Both the position numbers and the translations under genes were made by a program. Positions 10,458 to 61,486 of a stretch of DNA of 64,000 bases are shown here, one piece after another (position 1 is the first letter of the stretch; each line of letters opens with the position of its first letter). This DNA is from Enterobacter sp. RHBSTW-00175 (GTDB lineage Bacteria; Pseudomonadota; Gammaproteobacteria; Enterobacterales; Enterobacteriaceae), in NCBI RefSeq assembly GCF_013927005.1, contig NZ_CP055930.1, forward strand, positions 434,001-498,000, read 5' to 3'. The notes below the pieces were generated by a model that was not told the DNA's origin, did no database searches, and saw nothing but the letters and a program-made list of their open reading frames with translations.

Positions 10458-11477
10458 ATGTCTCTAACCCGAAAACGACGTAGTACCGGTAAAGTGACAC
10501 TTGCCGATGTTGCACAACTTGCTGGTGTGGGCACGATGACCGTGTCCCGTGCGTTACGCACACCCGAACAGGTTTCCGATAAACTACGTGAGAAAATTGA
10601 AGCCGCTGTGCAGGAACTGGGGTATATGCCCAATCTGGCCGCCAGTGCGCTGGCATCGGCCTCCTCATGGACGATCGCAATGGTTGTTCCCAACCTTTCC
10701 GAAGCAGGTTGCTCGGAAATGTTTGCCGGTTTACAGCAGGTACTGCAACCCGCGGGCTACCAGATAATGCTGGCAGAATCTCAGCATCGTCTTGAACAAG
10801 AAGAGAAACTGCTCGAAACCTTGCTGGCATCAAACATTGCCGCCGCGATTTTACTCAGCGTCGAACATAGCGATACCGTTCGCCACTGGCTGAAGAATGC
10901 CTCAATTCCGGTGATGGAAATGGGGGCAATGCGTGCCGACCCTATCGATATGAATATCGGGATCGACAACGTGGCCGCCATGTATGAGCTGACGGAGATG
11001 CTTATCCAGCGCGGCTACCAGAACATAGGCCTGCTGTGCGCTAACCAGGAACAGTGGATATTCCAGCAACATTTGCAAGGTTGGTACAAAGCCATGCTGC
11101 GCCACCATATGTCGCCTAATCGGGTGATTAATGCCGCCATGCCGCCTAATTTCTCCACCGGCACGGCGCAACTGCCGGAGTTTTTACTGGCCTGGCCTGA
11201 GCTGGATGCGCTGGTTTGCGTCTCGGACGAGATGGCCTGCGGGGCGTTGTACGAATGTCAGAGACGTCGCATCAAAGTGCCGGACGAGCTTGCGGTGGTC
11301 GGGTTTGGCGATAGCGATGTGAGCCGTGTCTGTCAGCCGCCGCTGACCACAATGGCCGTGCCGCATCGTAAGATTGGTATTGAAGCGGGAAAGGCGCTGC
11401 TGGAACGTCTTAATGACGGAGACTGGAGCGATCATAAACCTATCGCCTCCAGCCTGTGTTTGCGAGAGAGTTGTTAA
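10458..11477 (+). CDS. LacI-family transcriptional regulator of the PTS/transketolase operon
   Basis: 339 residues. The N-terminal helix-turn-helix with hinge reads VTLADVAQLAGVGTMTVSRAL (given in two parts: VTLADVAQLAG, VGTMTVSRAL), followed by a periplasmic-binding-protein-like sensor domain with LVCVSDEMACGALYECQRR and VVGFGDSDVSRVCQPPLTT. It resembles the GntR subgroup of LacI proteins. ATG at 10458 is chosen over an upstream frame because AGGAAGG lies six bases before it. Divergent from the PTS operon, with operators between; it probably represses that operon until an internal sugar phosphate binds. The stop lies three bases from the end of yfcD. Confidence 0.9.
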   Translation: MSLTRKRRSTGKVTLADVAQLAGVGTMTVSRALRTPEQVSDKLREKIEAAVQELGYMPNLAASALASASSWTIAMVVPNLSEAGCSEMFAGLQQVLQPAGYQIMLAESQHRLEQEEKLLETLLASNIAAAILLSVEHSDTVRHWLKNASIPVMEMGAMRADPIDMNIGIDNVAAMYELTEMLIQRGYQNIGLLCANQEQWIFQQHLQGWYKAMLRHHMSPNRVINAAMPPNFSTGTAQLPEFLLAWPELDALVCVSDEMACGALYECQRRRIKVPDELAVVGFGDSDVSRVCQPPLTTMAVPHRKIGIEAGKALLERLNDGDWSDHKPIASSLCLRESC

Positions 11478-11480
11478 GGC

Positions 11481-12035
11481 TTATTCAGCCTCTTCCTGTT
11501 TCTCGGGTTTTGCGGATTCGTTATTGGCGTTGCGACTCATCCACAGCGCCAGCGCTTTTAACGAATCTGGGGTGAATTCATCGCAGCGAGCGGTGATCTC
11601 TTCAGGGGTCATCCAGCTCACTTCGCTGACTTCTTCTTCCTGAAGCGCAAATGGCCCATGGGATACGCAGCTAAACAGCCCGCCCCAGACGCGGCAATTT
11701 TCGTCTTCAAAATAGAACTGACCGTGCTCGGCAAACGGTACGCCCGCAATACCTAACTCTTCTTCGGCTTCACGACGTGCTGACTCCAGCAACACTTCGT
11801 CTGCCTGAACGACGCCGCCCGCAGTGGCATCCAGCATCCCGGGGAGAAAATCTTTGGTGTCAGTGCGACGTTGTACCAGGATTTTGCCCATACCATCATG
11901 AACCACGATATAGGTTGCACGGTGGCGCAGACGCTCTGCACGCATTTGCGCGCGGCTTGACTGCGCGATCACTTCATTGTCTTCGTTGACAATGTCTACC
12001 CACTCTGTACTTGCCAAATGACTCTGCTCCACCAT
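11481..12035 (-). CDS. yfcD: Nudix hydrolase YfcD
   Basis: 184 residues, same family and nearly the length of E. coli YfcD (180). The Nudix box runs from about Gly73 to Gly95 with Glu80, Arg88-Glu89 and Glu91-Glu93, giving the metal-binding REAEEELG. The upstream part resembles isopentenyl-diphosphate isomerase-like Nudix enzymes ([20 protein letters not shown]). The physiological nucleoside-diphosphate substrate is unknown. The C-terminus is Glu-rich. Followed 55 bases upstream by yfcE in the same direction. Confidence 0.93.
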
Positions 12036-12090
12036 CGGGAAACCTTTTCGTCTGAGCGCTCTTACGGCGCGTTTGCAGTTGAGGTGTAAC

Positions 12091-12642
12091 TTACGGATTA
12101 ATCGTTACCTGCGCAATAACTTGCTGATCATTAAGTGCGATAACGCTTAACGTATTCTCATCCAACAACCCGTAGCTCGCCGGGTATCCGCCTTTCGGTA
12201 TGCTCACTGAACCGGGGTTAAAGTGATAAATCTCCCCACGTTTTTCCGCCACAGGAATATGAGTATGACCATAAACCAGGACATCGCCAGCGGCGAGCGC
12301 AGGGAGATTGTCCGGGCTAAAAAGATGACCGTGAGTCAAAAAGAGACGGCATTTTTCCAGCACAACCTGCTGCCAGGGTGCCGTCATGGGGAAATGCAGC
12401 AGCATCTGGTCAACTTCACTATCGCAATTACCGCGCACGGCAATAATGCGCTGTGCAACCGTGTTGAGCTTCTCAGCAACCTGCGCCGGGGCGTACCCTT
12501 CCGGTAACGCATTGCGCGGGCCATGGTTCAACACATCGCCCAGAATAACCAGCCACTGCGCCCGGCTCTGTGCGAACAGAGATAACACCTGCTCTGTTGC
12601 GGGCAGCGACCCGTGAATATCCGACGCAAACATAAGTTTCAT
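12091..12642 (-). CDS. yfcE: Metallophosphodiesterase YfcE
   Basis: 183 residues of the MJ0936/YfcE calcineurin-like family, which hydrolyse artificial phosphodiesters with Mn2+. Metal-ligand motifs are visible: SDIHGS with Asp8 and His10, [25 protein letters not shown] and YGHTHIP. The spacing is that of the family and the length is the same as E. coli YfcE (184). RBS GAGGAG lies before ATG 12642. The natural substrate is not known. Confidence 0.94.
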
Positions 12643-54622: not shown

Positions 54623-54697
54623 GTCCCCTTAGTTAAATGGATATAACGAGCCCCTCCTAAGGGCTAGTTGCAGGTTCGATTCCTGCAGGGGACACCA
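54623..54697 (+). tRNA. argW: tRNA-Arg (anticodon CCT)
   Basis: 75 bases that fold as a tRNA: acceptor GTCCCCT with AGGGGAC, T-arm GCAGGTTCGATTCCTGC, anticodon loop CTCCTAA with CCT, and an encoded CCA end. It corresponds to E. coli argW, the attachment site of the CPS-53 prophage and other islands. The 3' half can serve as an att core for the island that follows. Confidence 0.96.
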
Positions 54698-54829: not shown

Positions 54830-55024
54830 CATGGTTAATACCAATGATTCAAAGTCCTGGCGAATGAAGTATCGATTTGCCGGGAAACAGAATACCCACG
54901 GGCAACAACCTGTTTGACAGCTTCAATTTTAAACCCTTTAGGATAAACGCTTACTGCTCATAAGCACCTCTCTTTAACCCATTTTAAATGACTTTGAGGT
55001 GTCTGTTAAAACCGTGGCGATTCA
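54830..55024 (-). pseudogene. Remnant of an IS3-family element (left end and orfA fragment)
   Basis: On the minus strand, TGAATCGCCACGG (from 55024) looks like an IS3-family terminal repeat. About 60 bases later an ATG (54961) opens MSSKR, which after one extra T continues as GFKIEAVKQVVARGYSVS, the N-terminal helix-turn-helix of an IS3-type OrfA. The similarity fades after about 35 codons and no orfB or right end follows, so it is a short relic. The rest of 54698-55093 holds no gene; an inverted repeat GCCCGTTA/TAACGGGC lies at 55034-55058. Confidence 0.65.
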
Positions 55025-55093: not shown

Positions 55094-58000
55094 TTACTTC
55101 ACCTGATTCGCCCAAATATACGTCCCTAATCGAAGGAGTGTTTCGTGAGAGTTCGGTGAATAGACACTCAATAACCCCTGTTCGTTGGCTGCGAGATACT
55201 GCCAGCTTCCCTCTTCCATCATCAGTTCTTTGAAATCCGTACCGTTATTGCTCAGGTAGATAACCTGTCGGTTATTGCTTGATGGGAACAGGCTGATCCC
55301 ATCAAGGTGGAAACAATCAGAGACGCGCATTTCGTTGTCATGCCGTTTCCACTCGTAGCCTTTAACGGACGTCAGCAGATAGCAGGAGTAGAAACACATC
55401 AGCGTGTCATTCATTCGTGTTACCCGAACGTCGCTGTAGAACTCTTTCTCGCTATTCCAGGTGCAGCTACGCCAGTTTTTACCGGGCACATGGTATTCGA
55501 TCATCGGTTCTGATTTGGGGCGCTTTTTCACTGAGGTGTAGTAGCTGTCGTATTTGCTGAATGCCAGTAGACAATCCACGCCCGGCAGCGCGCAAAGGTT
55601 TTCTATCTCGATACCTTCACTGTAGTTCGGTGACTCGTCATAGCGTTGCCATGCTGCGCCCGGATTGTCGGCGCAGAAAATCAGCGGTTTATCATAGGTC
55701 GAGGTTTTCGTTGAGTCGAAGAAAAAGCCCTCATCCTTATACTGATACTCTTTGCGCTCTTTAAAACGCCACAACCAGCGATGATTAAAATAGACCAGAT
55801 CCTCGGTGGCGCTGTAGTCCCAGGCGTTGGGAAAATCCGGGAACTGGCTTTTTTGCCAGTTAAGCGCTTCGCGGGAATAGAGGAAACCCTCGCCGGAGCC
55901 GCCGAACATCACCCACACACCTTCAACAATAATTATTTTACTTACATAGCATCTTTCATCTGATGCAACGGGGTTCACGCTCTGCCAGTTCAGCCGATCC
56001 TCGCTTCGGTAGAAACATTCGTCGTTATCAACGATTAACCACACTTTGCCGTCGGTTTTGATATGACGGATATTTTCCGGATCGCAGGGCGGGTTTTCCA
56101 CCTCCTGCCAGTCAATGCTAAGTTTGTACTCCCGTCCCGCTTTAATCACAGTAACCGACTGCTTATTACGTTTTTCCTGTTCCTGCTGCTGCAACCAGTC
56201 AGCGTGTTTTTGCTTTTTAATACGAATAACCGAACTATCAAAATCACCTCGGGCAAAGAGTTCCAGTTGCTCAGCTGCATCGGAACAAGCCCTGGAAAAG
56301 GCGGTTAACACGCTGTCAATTTGGTTCTGATATTCGTTGAATTGATCGTACCACTCTTCGTTTTCGGCGGAATTATCCAGTTCATAATCGGAATAACTGA
56401 TGTACCCGTCATAGTCAAACGTCGGCAAACCCCAGCGCGAGGTCATTGCGTTGCCGGTACTCAGCGCTGAACCGTTCGCCGAGATAAACTCGCTGGCTTT
56501 TTTACGGAAATCATTAAGACCAGAAAGACAGGATTTGCGTCCCAGCGTGTAAGCCGAGCTACCGACCGCCGATCCCATTTTGCCGAGGAAGCTGTCACCT
56601 TCAAATGAGCCCATAAAGAAGCTCACGTCGGATGCTTTGTTGGTAATTTTCATCAGCTCAAAGCCCAGCATCGTTGCGGCATGGTCGGCGGCGTAAAGCT
56701 GTTTAATCGCGGCGGAAAAATACTCTTTAAATTGCAGTTCGCGGTAGCGGACGATGTTTTTCCACCCCTGCGTCAGCGCGTTTAATTTCACTGCGCTGGC
56801 AAGTAACTGCGTTTCGTCACTTTCGCGGATCAGCGTTAGCATAGCAGCGAAATTATCTTTAAACTGCGCAGGTTTCAGAACGCCAAGCAGGCGCATCACC
56901 TGCGGGTTTTCAATGGTCTTGCCGCAGAGCGCCAGCAGGAAAAAGACGTCGAAAAGCCAGCTGTAACGTGCGTTATCATCACTCAGCAGTGACAGCATCT
57001 CCGGCTGATATTGCTGGTATTTGTACGCGCTATCGGCCAGGCTGGCGATTTCTTCAGCCACTGCCGGGCAGCCCGCTTTCTCGCCGAGCAGCGCCAGAAA
57101 CTCAGCTCCTTGCATACTCAGCGATGCTGAATTCTCAATGCTTAGCGCCAGCAGCAACAGATAAATGTGTTTTTTCTCTTCGCTCTCTGTGGTATCCAGA
57201 AAACTGTGCTGGCGGATATCGGGCAGCTCAGAAACCAGCGTTAACGCCTCAGCGGCGTCATCTTGCGGAGCCTCAATTGCAGCGGCATTTAACCCGTTAA
57301 TATCTTTATAAATATCGATAGTCACCAGACTACCGCCGATCACTTCGCTAATCAGATCGCGGATACTGTAGATGGTTGATAAGCCAGCAAAGGTTTCGCC
57401 AAACAGCCTGGAAATCAGTTTTTCGCGTGCTTCATCACTATTGCACAACACATCATCATCAATCAGTGAAACTATCTTTTCATATTGATCAGAAAGGAAA
57501 TAGAGGGCGTTAAACCCGATCCCGGAGATATTGGTCTGGATAAAATGAGAATCAATCAGATGCTCATCCAGCGAAATTTCAATCAGCGAGCGGTAGCGAT
57601 CAATACCGGCAATCTCGATCTGGTCGATAAGCTCAATAATAAAATCCAGCAGACGTACTTCTTCATCGCAGTTGATGCCGAGTTTTTCCAGTGTCACGAT
57701 CAGGTAATTGATATCCGCTGTCGCCAGTTCAGCATCTTTGTGTCGACGCATAAAATCATAGGTCAGGCTTAATACCAAAATAGTGCCTGGATAAGATTTA
57801 TAGCGTCGTTTATTCGCTTCGATATCTAATGACCAGTTATTAAAGCGAGTGTTATTTTCCACATGTACCAGTCGGCGATTAATTTTATCAATTGCCTGCT
57901 CAAGGAAATCCCGGGTTTCAATAATAAATTCGTTCATCGTTCCCAGGTTATTACGAATAATGGCAATGCTCTGAGAATTGAGTAAATTCTGCTGCTGCAA

Positions 58001-58303
58001 TTGCATCAGATAATGCCAGGCAAACTTCTGCATTTGCAACGCATCAGACTGATTTTGTAACTGATTTTCACTGTTCTTGCCGGTAATCGCGCCGGCAAAA
58101 CGTTTGAAAAACCCGCTGCTCGCCTGATTTTGCAGCCGATCCTGACTGGTGGAAATCAGCTTTGAGGCGTCCAGCGCCAGTTGTTGCGTAAGCGCCGCAT
58201 TAGCAGTGTGTTGTCTGACCAGGTGGTTTACTGCCTCCAACTCAGCCCCTTCCAGGGGTTGATGAAAAATCTGTTGTTGCAGCTCAGCTGTCATGTCGGT
58301 CAT
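55094..58303 (-). CDS. Large protein of unknown function: helical N-terminal region and beta-propeller-like C-terminal region
   Basis: An intact 1069-codon gene that I do not recognise. The first ~200 residues are helical and Gln/Asn-rich (SGFFKRFAGAITGKNSENQL, MQLQQQNLLNSQSIAIIRNN), like a coiled-coil region. The middle (about 200-650) is helical with one hydrophobic stretch (SWLFDVFFLLALCG) and a glycine/serine-rich segment. From about residue 715 it becomes strand-rich with repeats around Trp/Phe-Tyr motifs (DGKVWLIVDNDECFYRSEDR, GVWVMFGGSGEGFLYSREAL), resembling BNR/sialidase-type or YCF48-like propeller blades. No signal peptide. It starts ten bases after the 471-codon gene with its own AGGAA, so both form an operon. 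Base composition is more A+T-rich than the flanks. Confidence 0.8.
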   Translation of the reverse strand: MTDMTAELQQQIFHQPLEGAELEAVNHLVRQHTANAALTQQLALDASKLISTSQDRLQNQASSGFFKRFAGAITGKNSENQLQNQSDALQMQKFAWHYLMQLQQQNLLNSQSIAIIRNNLGTMNEFIIETRDFLEQAIDKINRRLVHVENNTRFNNWSLDIEANKRRYKSYPGTILVLSLTYDFMRRHKDAELATADINYLIVTLEKLGINCDEEVRLLDFIIELIDQIEIAGIDRYRSLIEISLDEHLIDSHFIQTNISGIGFNALYFLSDQYEKIVSLIDDDVLCNSDEAREKLISRLFGETFAGLSTIYSIRDLISEVIGGSLVTIDIYKDINGLNAAAIEAPQDDAAEALTLVSELPDIRQHSFLDTTESEEKKHIYLLLLALSIENSASLSMQGAEFLALLGEKAGCPAVAEEIASLADSAYKYQQYQPEMLSLLSDDNARYSWLFDVFFLLALCGKTIENPQVMRLLGVLKPAQFKDNFAAMLTLIRESDETQLLASAVKLNALTQGWKNIVRYRELQFKEYFSAAIKQLYAADHAATMLGFELMKITNKASDVSFFMGSFEGDSFLGKMGSAVGSSAYTLGRKSCLSGLNDFRKKASEFISANGSALSTGNAMTSRWGLPTFDYDGYISYSDYELDNSAENEEWYDQFNEYQNQIDSVLTAFSRACSDAAEQLELFARGDFDSSVIRIKKQKHADWLQQQEQEKRNKQSVTVIKAGREYKLSIDWQEVENPPCDPENIRHIKTDGKVWLIVDNDECFYRSEDRLNWQSVNPVASDERCYVSKIIIVEGVWVMFGGSGEGFLYSREALNWQKSQFPDFPNAWDYSATEDLVYFNHRWLWRFKERKEYQYKDEGFFFDSTKTSTYDKPLIFCADNPGAAWQRYDESPNYSEGIEIENLCALPGVDCLLAFSKYDSYYTSVKKRPKSEPMIEYHVPGKNWRSCTWNSEKEFYSDVRVTRMNDTLMCFYSCYLLTSVKGYEWKRHDNEMRVSDCFHLDGISLFPSSNNRQVIYLSNNGTDFKELMMEEGSWQYLAANEQGLLSVYSPNSHETLLRLGTYIWANQVK

Positions 58304-58313
58304 TTTCTGTTCC

Positions 58314-59729
58314 TTACAGATTATTAATTTTATTTTTTAAACGCAGGCTCTGCATTTGCAGGGTTTTTATCTGACTGGCGAAGTGCTTTTCAGAGAGATA
58401 AAGCCCTTTATGGAAATCGGCGTAATAGGTTTGCGATTGCTGCAGATAATTGAGCGCATCGTGCATCACCAGGCCGCTGCTCACCACCTGTTCGGTGTTG
58501 GCGAGGATAAGCTGGAAATTTCTCTCGATATGGTTGTCAATGGCGATATTCATGGCGAGCGTTGTAATCACGCCGCCGATAAGACTACCTACCAGCGCGC
58601 CCACCGGCCCGCCGAGTGCGCCCACCGCCGCGCCTACCGAGGCTCCCGTGACGCCCGCGCCGGTCTGGAACAGATTCTTACCCACCCTGGATTCTAGCTC
58701 CTGGGCACTAATTTTCCCCGCCGCGTACAGCACCACGTTTTGCACCACATCCACGGCGCAAACGGCCGCCCCGGCAACACCGCCGTTCGCCATACTGCGT
58801 TTGAAAACCGTACCGGCAAACAGGCCGGGCATAGAGCGGGCAGCGATGCTGACGCTGGCACTGGCAACCCCGGCTTTCAGGGCGCTGTCCCCGGCGGCAA
58901 TTACCGTGTTTTGCAGGATCTGGACAGTGGCTTGTTCAACCGTAATCTCGCCATTTTTTACCTGCCGAATATACTGGAAAGTATTGATACTTCCGGCAAT
59001 AACAGTCGTGATAACCGCCGCCGATCCCGCCGCCCGCACGCTTCGCTGGATGGTCGCTTTATTGAGATAACCATCCTGCATGTTCTTATGCAGATCTTTC
59101 CCTGCTGGCGTACCGGCTCCCACAGACTCAGCATCGCGTTTGCTGAGCGGTGTGGAACTCACCCCTTCCGCCTCAATGGATCCGGCAGTGTTATCACGCA
59201 CTTTTGCCGCGGCTTTGGAAACCTCGGGACGCGTTTGCTGATTTTTATGTACGGTACGCTGCGCGGAGGCTTTAATATCCTCAATTTGATCGGCCGGACC
59301 GATAAACACATCACTGTGCTGATATTGATGCACGCCATCTTTGGTTGAACGGAATGCGTTCTGCGTTTTATTGGCATTCTGAAAATATTTCAGTTGCGCT
59401 CCCAGCACCTGCTCATCACCCTTCATCACCACGATGTCATGCACCTGATGATTTTTTACCAGAGGGGAATTCTTAAACTGGTCAGTAAAGGCGCAAATGT
59501 CTTTATCTTGCAGAATGGCATCAAGGTTGAAGGATTCTGCGTGCCAGGTCTCAGCAGCAAAACCGCCTTTTATGGCGTTGTTTTGCATCGTGGACGAGAT
59601 GGTAGACATAATAGAGTTAGCCTGGTTTATTTCACCCACCATGCGGCCAATCTTTTCTGCTGCCTGCATTGGCCAGATTGGACAGAGGCTAATCGACTGC
59701 GTTATGGCCTTTTTGCGATCGTTCGTCAT
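58314..59729 (-). CDS. Protein of unknown function with a C-terminal glycine-zipper membrane segment
   Basis: An intact 471-codon gene not recognised by name. Residues about 55-165 form a compact alpha/beta-looking domain (TWHAESFNLDAILQDKDICA, VHDIVVMKGDEQVLGAQLKY, SDVFIGPADQIEDIK), reminiscent of nuclease-fold or phage-polyvalent-protein domains, but no catalytic residues can be claimed. Residues about 230-335 are Ala/Val-rich, and 357-394 is a glycine zipper (GAGVTGASVGAAVGALGG, GALVGSLIGGVITTLAM) typical of membrane-inserting or oligomerising proteins. The last 70 residues are amphipathic helix. RBS GAGGATGCAGC overlaps the stop of the broken WYL gene upstream; the 1069-codon gene follows. 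Confidence 0.8.
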   Translation of the reverse strand: MTNDRKKAITQSISLCPIWPMQAAEKIGRMVGEINQANSIMSTISSTMQNNAIKGGFAAETWHAESFNLDAILQDKDICAFTDQFKNSPLVKNHQVHDIVVMKGDEQVLGAQLKYFQNANKTQNAFRSTKDGVHQYQHSDVFIGPADQIEDIKASAQRTVHKNQQTRPEVSKAAAKVRDNTAGSIEAEGVSSTPLSKRDAESVGAGTPAGKDLHKNMQDGYLNKATIQRSVRAAGSAAVITTVIAGSINTFQYIRQVKNGEITVEQATVQILQNTVIAAGDSALKAGVASASVSIAARSMPGLFAGTVFKRSMANGGVAGAAVCAVDVVQNVVLYAAGKISAQELESRVGKNLFQTGAGVTGASVGAAVGALGGPVGALVGSLIGGVITTLAMNIAIDNHIERNFQLILANTEQVVSSGLVMHDALNYLQQSQTYYADFHKGLYLSEKHFASQIKTLQMQSLRLKNKINNL

Positions 59730-59738
59730 GCTGCATCC

Positions 59739-60605
59739 TCAAACGTTATCCTGAAAAGTATTATCGGTTATAGGGTCATTTTCTTGAGTAAGTCGCGAGA
59801 TATATTGAGAAAGTTGCGCTACAAATGCGCTAGCTTCAGCGACGGGTGATACGATCCGCACATCAGGTAACCAGAACCGCAAGTAGAAAAAAGCTTATCC
59901 CGATGGGCAATTCGCGTCGTCATGATTTACTTCCCTTCTGGCGTTTTGCTGATGATTTTTTGCTGCGGCAATATGCTGCGTCATTCGAAATAGCGGGCGA
60001 TATCAGGAAGTACTTCAACGGTCACCTCTATTATGTTCATGCTGAACCAGCTGCCATCTTCACTATTGAGATAGTCATGAATATCACTGTCGGCGTCGAA
60101 GGCGTTTTTTTGACACCCAGCCACTCAATTACGCTGACCTTCCAGGCTTTGATCATCAACTCCGCATCCGTTGCCGTCAGATACCCCCCTTTTAAATTCA
60201 TAAAGCGGTATGGATGCACCTTCCTCGATTTATCCTTGTATTGCATGATGCAGACATGACGCTCTTTAATGGCTTTTTCCAGCGTGGATATATCCGTTTT
60301 TGCAGATCCGAATTCAGCGATTCAGCAGGTAGCGGCAGTAATTCTCCCATCCCCGTTTTTTCACTTAAGCAGGTTAATGACGGCAGTTTATCTTCTGCCT
60401 CATTCAGCAAGGAGATATGATAAATGCCGTCTTGCGAGCAGGAGAGAAATGCGCCCATGCGATTTAAATCGCGATAAATGGTTCTTTCACTGACATTAAA
60501 ACGGCTGGCCAGTTCACGGCGGGACACGCAGCCAGACTAAAATAATTGCAGTAAAATCATATAAATATGGTTTGAAATACGCTCATGGCGTGAGGCATTT
60601 TCCAT
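59739..60605 (-). pseudogene. WYL-domain (DeoR/YafY-like) transcriptional regulator, full-length pseudogene
   Basis: Reading the minus strand from ATG 60605 and correcting lesions gives a complete regulator of about 288 residues: an HTH (VSRRELASRFNVSERTIYRD), a WYL domain (IMQYKDKSRKVHPYRFMNLK) and a C-terminal WCX-like end (YLRFWLPDVRIVSPVAEASA). Lesions seen: TAG at 60537-60539 (expected CAG), a lost base in the T run 60297-60301, an extra base in the T run 60105-60111, TGA at 59981-59983, TAA at 59927-59929, and a lost base in the A run 59887-59892. The frame ends at TGA 59739-59741, inside the RBS of the next gene. Several lesions are in homopolymers, so sequencing error should be excluded, but three nonsense codons argue for real decay. 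Confidence 0.75.
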
Positions 60606-60606
60606 T

Positions 60607-60630
60607 ATCAAATCCCAACTTGAATTTGAT
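60607..60630. promoter_or_regulatory. Possible operator before the WYL pseudogene
   Basis: TCAAAT (60608-60613) and ATTTGA (60624-60629) form an inverted repeat directly before the regulator start; an autoregulatory site is conceivable but unproven. Confidence 0.3.
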
Positions 60631-60632
60631 TA

Positions 60633-60685
60633 TCAGATTACCCCGGCGTACTGACAGGCAATGTCAGTACGCCGGGGTAATCTGA
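60633..60685. repeat. Perfect 24-bp inverted repeat with 5-base loop
   Basis: Arms 60633-60656 and 60662-60685 are exact reverse complements around GGCAA; the stem core is CCCCGGCGTACTGACA. No T tract follows on either strand. It lies between the decayed toxin/immunity region and the WYL regulator. Confidence 0.85.
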
Positions 60686-60907
60686 AATTTCAATCATAAG
60701 CTAATTGCTATAATTAACATCATTTATGTATCTGAATTTTCCTGCACCTTTATTCATGAATTTTACAGTTGCAATGAGCTGTTGGTTCTGTAAATCTCAG
60801 AAAATTATGCGTGAGTCGCAAGAATGACGCCAGCCGCTCAAATGCCATCAAATGATTGATATATTTATGCTTATAGTAGATATTCCTGGTCCCAAGGGTC
60901 AGCGTGG
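60686..60907. other. A+T-rich stretch without an intact gene
   Basis: No supported gene. On the minus strand one frame stays open for about 46 codons (ending KIHE stop near 60757) with residues such as YYKHKYINHLMAFERLASFL, which may be the tail of another decayed gene; I cannot assign it. Confidence 0.35.
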
Positions 60908-61126
60908 TCAGCTAAAAATGGTAAATGAACTGGCATCCAGTTGTTCCTCCTGACCCAGAAACTCCTCAATATCTTCAAACAAAGTAATTTGCATACTTTT
61001 ACTGGAGTGTCAGGTATACGCCTCAATTATCGGTCCGATTTCATTACTGCCGTCTATGACGTCGTAACCCTGCCCGAAGTAGTTTTCGACAAGGTTATCC
61101 AGTACCCGCAGCGTGTTCATACCCAT
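60908..61126 (-). pseudogene. Remnant of a CDI-type immunity gene (cdiI-like)
   Basis: From ATG 61126 (or 61120) the minus strand reads VLDNLVENYFGQGYDVIDGS and NEIGPIIEAYT, then an in-frame TGA at 61010-61012, then MQITLFEDIEEFLGQEEQLD to a TGA at 60908-60910. The first part resembles the N-terminus of contact-dependent growth inhibition immunity proteins. The internal stop and short end make it a pseudogene. It starts five bases after the toxin-like fragment. Confidence 0.45.
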
Positions 61127-61130
61127 CGTT

Positions 61131-61477
61131 TTATTCCATTGGAATTGATGTCAGGATAAAATAAGGTTTTCCATTATAGTTTGTCATTTCCAGCCAGATT
61201 TCGGCACGATTACACTTCCTCGTCTGACTACGATCCCTGTTGGTGTCCTGAATTGCATGTTAATTTTCTTCCGAAGTGGTATCCCTCTTGGGGCATTTTT
61301 GACCCACATCTCAATCTCATACTTGTGCGCCTTGAGTGTTCTTGTCGTCAGGATCTCTGACTGCTCCAGAGACTTAAAGTTTGTTTTGATAATTAGACAG
61401 GAATACCTTCCCCACCAATATCCCCTTCACTTACACTCTTCAGCACTTTCCAGACTCTGTTACTGAACTCACCTCAG
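61131..61477 (-). pseudogene. Remnant of a CdiA-CT/polymorphic-toxin C-terminal domain
   Basis: Minus-strand fragments in different frames read FSNRVWKVLKSVSEGDIGGE, then FKSLEQSEILTTRTLKAHKY and INMQFRTPTGIVVRRGSV, then NRAEIWLEMTNYNGKPYFIL to a TAA at 61131-61133. They need at least two frameshifts to join. The order toxin tail, then small immunity gene a few bases later, is that of CDI/Rhs toxin-immunity pairs. The upstream part of the toxin gene is gone; the fragment ends at the cupin gene. Confidence 0.45.
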
Positions 61478-61486
61478 GCGACTTAA

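Follow-up and report, generated by a model that had tools for sequence, protein, structure and literature searches.

A two-gene mobile cassette of a probable glycine-zipper nuclease and a helical-propeller protein, a likely defence module, beside a tRNA-Arg gene of Enterobacter

The window analysed here is a 64-kb stretch of DNA from Enterobacter sp. RHBSTW-00175 (NZ_CP055930.1, positions 434,001-498,000), which contains a cassette of two genes encoding proteins of 471 and 1069 residues, preceded by the remains of a gene for a WYL-type regulator. The elements of the cassette, in window coordinates, are as follows:

55094..58303, minus strand: gene of the 1069-residue protein, frame open throughout
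55103..56161, minus strand: beta-propeller domain, residues 715-1067 of the 1069-residue protein
58314..59729, minus strand: gene of the 471-residue protein, frame open throughout
58527..58658, minus strand: glycine-rich hydrophobic segment, residues 358-401 of the 471-residue protein, with hydropathy peaks and conserved glycines
59235..59582, minus strand: nuclease-like domain, residues 50-165 of the 471-residue protein (E60, H63, D98, Q112 and K114)
59745..60605, minus strand: WYL-regulator pseudogene, four pieces in three frames with an early TAG

A preliminary description of this DNA had read the two large genes as intact, in one direction and 10 bp apart, and this is what we find, with both minus-strand frames open and a spacing of 10 bp. 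The stop of the regulator likewise falls where it had been placed, the TGA of the regulator frame overlapping the following ribosome-binding site. Comparison with two Cronobacter copies gave ratios of nonsynonymous to synonymous divergence (dN/dS) of 0.06 for the 471-residue protein and 0.08-0.11 for the 1069-residue protein, values that are only a rough sign of purifying selection, since dS, at 1.9-2.6, is saturated.

The two genes form a conserved pair. A scan of species genomes yielded 15 loci (designated by L numbers), 14 of them close (at least 64% identity) and one distant (L016, 27%); plasmid records gave two Cronobacter entries with a full-length gene for the 471-residue protein plus four distant partial matches; and a Pseudomonas sample contributed L037 and L039. 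With L038 excluded from the count as the same contig as L005, 19 loci carry the full-length gene, the window included. The preliminary description had made the co-occurrence of homologues a check on its reading, and the gene of the 1069-residue protein indeed adjoins that of the 471-residue protein, on the same strand, in all 19, among which L009 ends at a contig edge, L014 is frame-broken throughout, and L003 and L037 are near-identical. The gap between the genes, measured in 14 loci, is 7-12 bp. Furthermore, the distances of the two proteins correlate (Mantel r = 0.962 over 17 loci, with 0 of 5000 permutations reaching r); the test leaves out L009, L014 and L038, and part of the correlation comes from close pairs and common host descent.

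The pair was found in Betaproteobacteria as well as Gammaproteobacteria, both chromosomally and on plasmids, and its flanks differ. Clear common flanks are present in 4 of 171 locus pairs (L003/L037, five open reading frames (ORFs); L017/L018, nine; L005/L011, two small ORFs; L008/L012, two ARMADA-type helicases), and nine further pairs have loose matches only, at 24-34% identity. With identities of 99.8% and 99.5% in the two proteins and a common upstream flank, L003 and L037 count as a single case found in two genomes. Identity in the 471-residue protein is 94-96% among L004, L005 and L039, and 90% between L007 and L012, whose surroundings otherwise differ.

The cassette is rare and patchy in distribution. 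Full-length matches were found in 1 of 398 genomes of a phylum sample, 1 of 295 of a family sample and 1 of 369 of a class sample, each time in the window's own genome, with a few partial matches besides. A Pseudomonas-centred sample gave 5 of 298 genomes, and samples around other centres gave 1 of 294, 1 of 148 and 2 of 135, these samples including genomes already known as carriers. Among the 5,426 genomes of an Escherichia coli collection, neither a near DNA search with the pair nor a distant DNA search with the gene of the 471-residue protein found a copy. Phage records contained one weak partial match only, and viral contigs contained no match for the close family and one distant homologue.

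The regulator upstream had been described as a gene, which proved wrong for this copy: the start frame (60605) is open for 22 codons up to a TAG, and matches to an intact 313-residue WYL protein, found at the same place in Cronobacter plasmids, are scattered over four pieces in three frames down to 59745. The window gene is thus a pseudogene and is not working, so that the regulatory role proposed for it does not apply to the window copy. In intact relatives, WYL and WCX domains are present, together with helix-turn-helix (HTH) matches in the Cronobacter protein; the broken window copy does not hold WYL, WCX and HTH in one open frame. WYL genes nevertheless stand beside the pair in 16 of the 19 loci, in at least two groups and in both orientations: a Pseudomonas-type protein on the same strand at seven loci; relatives of the Cronobacter type at six, two of them at ~33% identity and the window copy broken; and divergent WYL/WCX proteins at three (L006, L007 and L015). 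No WYL gene was found at L008, L009 and L012. That one conserved pair is accompanied by different WYL groups suggests that the regulator was recruited or replaced more than once. In L039, from another Pseudomonas, the WYL homology is split by ~1.2 kb (~11050-12250), a second regulator loss. WYL-type regulators are associated with defence islands, according to PMC12409362, and the WYL/WCX proteins beside the pair resemble these; the arrangement differs in its at least two groups and two orientations, its absence at three of 19 loci, the broken window copy and the split copy of L039.

The 471-residue protein is probably a nuclease of the PD-(D/E)XK type, as judged from its conserved residues and predicted fold. 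In a motif alignment of 43 sequences (nine close and 34 more distant), G56, E60, D98 and K114 do not vary at all, 39 sequences have H63 and 30 have Q112, and the signature residues are all present in 70 of 70 rows of alignment A5. The protein therefore has the acidic helix residue, catalytic aspartate and (D/E/Q)xK motif of this superfamily. In the predicted model, a helix (51-73, with E60 and H63) is followed by strands 79-81, 99-103 and 106-113, a helix (119-128), a strand (141-143) and a helix (146-163); D98 adjoins the start of strand 99-103, and strand 106-113 reaches Q112. This predicted alpha-beta-beta-beta-alpha-beta order fits the PD-(D/E)XK core. In its E...D...(Q)xK signature and predicted order of elements the protein resembles the superfamily, but neither profile nor fold searches linked it above threshold to a known member. 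Confidence in the model is limited to ~residues 21-230, where the 10-residue mean predicted local distance difference test (pLDDT) score is 66-94, except at 121-140, where it falls to 57-62.

In the tail of the 471-residue protein, hydrophobicity peaks at 230-251, 315-341 and 358-401, the third of these stretches being rich in glycine. The preliminary description had named the product a glycine-zipper protein; the zipper is present, but as the tail of a probable nuclease that had gone unseen. These helices may hold the protein in or at the inner membrane. The several hydrophobic, glycine-rich conserved segments, together with weak Gly-zipper_Omp matches in 2 of 43 members (best E-value 2.1e-05), could also be explained by an abortive mechanism, in which infection, sensed by the propeller protein, would make the tail oligomerise into a membrane pore, with the N-terminal domain serving as a sensor that binds DNA or has weak nuclease activity. 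We regard this as improbable, because all 43 homologues have the E-D-K signature, which points to catalysis.

The 1069-residue protein, described earlier as helical with a propeller, has an AlphaFold2 model of mean pLDDT 80.5, and the guess is borne out by a confidently predicted C-terminal beta-propeller, a closed ring of four-stranded blades. It follows low-confidence N-terminal helices (~1-140) and a helical body (~140-714); conservation is highest at residues 101-150. PDB sequence searches gave nothing usable, the best match being CoG4 (E-value 0.031, residues 535-674 of the profile of the 1069-residue protein). A TerB-like domain, suspected at first, is not claimed, as no TerB appeared among 25 of 26 families listed for 37 members. 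One of 120 listed proteins, the metagenome homologue P0218, is fused to a TPM domain (residues 1216-1339).

The cassette lies ~400 bp from a tRNA-Arg(CCT) gene, which we take to be argW-like. Its neighbouring features are as follows:

54623..54697, plus strand: tRNA-Arg(CCT), at an insertion hotspot
54831..54914, plus strand: short remnant resembling the start of an integrase
54880..54975, minus strand: OrfA-like relic of an insertion sequence
60624..60694, no strand: inverted repeat with 33-nt arms, 88% complementary, separated by 5 nt

The remnant reads like the start of a tyrosine integrase, presumably P4-type. The relic had already been noticed and is plausible; its family is presumably IS3-type. 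The inverted repeat stands directly upstream of the WYL remnant and is without a match in E. coli genomes. The stretch 60606-61486 has no long open frame; it had been read as toxin/immunity relics, which a DNA search of E. coli genomes, giving no match, did not identify. The tRNA site itself had been called an integration hotspot, and we agree. The interval between tRNA-Arg(CCT) and the next conserved gene, which we take to be lpxP, was compared in 10 relatives of the same genus, with ~12 kb fetched from each. It is ~7.35 kb in the window, 44 bp in L043, ~1.5 kb in L042 and L044, 5.0 kb in L051 and 7.2 kb in L046, and it is unclosed within ~12 kb in 5 of 10, a variation that marks the site as an insertion hotspot. 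An attachment-site repeat sought in the window gave the tRNA itself as the sole match, with no second copy of the tRNA end.

That the cassette is mobile and matches no named system, as the preliminary description had it, is well supported: the pair recurs in varied flanks, and searches of Pfam, NCBIfam and PADLOC gave neither protein a hit above cut-off. PADLOC 2.0.0, which covers BREX, CBASS and other systems up to 2023, gave no match for either protein at E-values up to 1. Foldseek, which had been recommended, gave long-helix matches with the 471-residue model, and PHROGs, which has no cut-off, gave only a short glycine-rich match (phrog_18476, function unknown, residues 349-396 of the 471-residue protein, E-value 2.1e-06). 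Matches to VbhA (E-value 0.0053, short, below cut-off) and PdsO (E-value 1.9e-05, short, 24.5 bits against a cut-off of 152.2) were rejected, as were PF26373 and PF25852, which are precomputed for a few homologues and were not reproduced in those that were rescanned. We found no account of the pair in the accessible parts of the literature, including PMC12458937, PMC11090510, PMC12409362 and the DefensePredictor paper, with subscription papers and supplements outside this scope.

Two loci in unrelated hosts place the pair in defence islands. In L008 (Vibrio), genes for an ArmC-like protein of 2140 residues and an ArmD-like helicase of 711 residues lie directly upstream of the pair, and in PADLOC these helicases match DruE (E-value 2.2e-98) and NERD-UvrD and GajB (1.1e-32 and 8e-31), respectively. 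In L012, from a Giesbergeria metagenome-assembled genome, the upstream DNA encodes homologues of ArmC and ArmD (36% and 42% identical), separated by a small DUF2442/HTH gene, and the pair follows ~1.4 kb downstream of the ArmD-like gene. The ORF in which the L008 contig begins, upstream of ArmC, has 40% identity over 639 residues (E-value 4.6e-111) to a 1762-residue ORF of the L012 contig, and the latter ORF carries an NPPW motif; we take both as putative PglX-like ArmB, without a profile match. Between this methyltransferase-like ORF and ArmC, L012 has MotA- and MotB-type ORFs (E-values 4.5e-38 and 5.8e-51 to 8vvi), with a ZorA match (8qyk, E-value 2.5e-06), and an ORF read as HNH for which a PDB search gave nothing. 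We presume that this ZorAB-like and HNH-like set resembles Zorya II. The contig of L012 and L057 is a dense island, with ARMADA-like helicases, the methyltransferase-like ORF, the ZorAB-like pair, the HNH-like ORF, a transposase-like ORF (by eye) and the cassette.

ARMADA has the gene order ArmA-ArmB-ArmC-ArmD, according to PMC12458937. A position downstream of an ArmD-like gene in two unrelated hosts, L008 and L012 being among only four clear common-flank cases, would suit an accessory factor of ARMADA-type systems that does not stand alone. This is very unlikely, as 17 of 19 loci gave no match to ArmC or ArmD in the DNA fetched, and a tblastn search with the L008 proteins gave none across the window; the set of ARMADA type II is thus incomplete there, ArmA and ArmB not having been tested. 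The cassette resembles ARMADA type II in the common island at L008 and L012 and in including a PD-(D/E)XK-type domain (PMC12458937), which in the cassette is putative, and differs in having neither helicase nor methyltransferase and in that ArmC and ArmD were not found beside 17 of 19 loci.

More distant homologues of the 471-residue protein form a wider nuclease-zipper family; a search with L016 listed 56 proteins. L016, L019, L020 and L040 have the same G-E-D-K motif at ~19-31% identity to the window protein, L060 and L061 have matching motif strings, and the shorter L062 has the first half only. None of the four loci tested (L016, L019, L020 and L040) has a homologue of the 1069-residue protein, and these distant relatives differ from the window cassette in their partners. 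In L019 (4983-10305) and L040 (4819-10127), the nuclease-zipper homologue is in one operon with a coiled-coil-like protein and a superfamily 1 (SF1) helicase, possibly a third undescribed system. In L016, L060, L061 and L062, a small gene (177-234 residues) lies directly upstream in place of the propeller protein gene; the four small proteins are mutually homologous (L060/L061, 37% over 234 columns, E-value 2e-46; L016/L060, 22%, E-value 4e-08) and thus mark a second conserved pair, which is present in Bacillota and on a viral contig and is possibly a second undescribed system. L020 has N-6 DNA methylase, AAA, HNH and DUF262 genes as neighbours, and L062 has AAA and DUF262 genes. Such modularity of partners would be expected of conflict systems.

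A defence role of the cassette is likely, and we infer nuclease activity, membrane placement and a sensor role for its parts. In our judgement, the chance is slightly better than even that the cassette is a mobile module of two genes directed against phages (or plasmids), as a rule with a WYL factor beside it, in which a membrane-tethered nuclease has a propeller partner. Specifically, the 471-residue protein would be a DNA nuclease of the PD-(D/E)XK type that its glycine-zipper helices anchor at or in the inner membrane, while the helical-propeller partner would recognise a phage trigger or substrate and control the nuclease. When a phage infects, the complex would cleave its DNA at the membrane as it enters; killing of the cell through membrane and DNA damage would be a less likely outcome. 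The WYL protein would adjust expression of the pair, and the window copy, its WYL gene being a pseudogene, is probably expressed without WYL control or decaying.

Several observations weigh against this module. Q112 is replaced in 13 of 43 homologues (by G in seven, S in four and E in two); single, weak Pfam nuclease matches were obtained in one of 43 members each (PDDEXK_5, E-value 0.025; Tsp45I, 0.028); and no PD-(D/E)XK structure was among the matches listed by Foldseek/VIA for the 471-residue model, although these fold searches were swamped by long-helix matches, so that the absence says nothing. The remainder of that model is helical with pLDDT mostly <55, the mean of the whole being 58.9, and membrane placement is read from hydropathy. 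In a PADLOC flank scan of 109 of 140 selected ORFs at 16 loci (the 31 left out being WYL genes and ORFs judged antisense or minor by hand), the 25 of 134 families listed each had two members; they are of kinds to which the L008 helicases also match, and we take the members to be the L008 and L012 helicases. The other 14 scanned loci had no recurrent known defence neighbour among the families listed, in a scan run without a control region. On the Cronobacter plasmids, the pair is surrounded by ordinary genes for metabolism, regulation and transport.

Neighbours that are ordinary or unidentified at most loci would be natural for a non-immune pair carried as mobile cargo and serving element maintenance, inter-element conflict or envelope stress. 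We consider this unlikely, given the nuclease-like signature, the WYL linkage, the defence islands in two hosts and the conflict-type neighbours of the distant homologues. The earlier proposal of a defence function accordingly keeps the support of these same four lines, set against the character of most neighbours, and the check that came with it, whether the WYL gene and both large genes recur together in defence islands, gives a WYL gene at 16 of 19 loci and ARMADA-type genes at 2 of 19.

SNIPE combines DUF4041 and GIY-YIG domains, neither of which was listed for the 471- or 1069-residue protein at E-values up to 1, and the cassette differs from it in being two genes with a large propeller partner, with no common domain found. 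The parallel is in the way of working only, a nuclease at the inner membrane: SNIPE is a membrane-bound nuclease that cleaves phage DNA during injection, as described in PMC13190303. Beyond the two-gene module, we put forward, tentatively and as a doubtful extension, a new class of defence, in which a PD-(D/E)XK nuclease anchored in the membrane by its glycine zipper would be aimed at entering phage DNA by a helical-propeller sensor, with interchangeable partners (propeller, SF1 helicase or small upstream protein) across the wider family.

If confirmed, the cassette would be an unnamed mobile defence system, missed by the curated family libraries tried and present in Enterobacterales, Pseudomonas, Vibrio and Burkholderiales, in most cases with no known defence gene next to it. 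If the proposed mechanism is true, discrimination of entering phage DNA from host DNA by location would have been reached by another, apparently unrelated, route, and the wider nuclease-zipper family would offer a ready comparison for how partners set the target.

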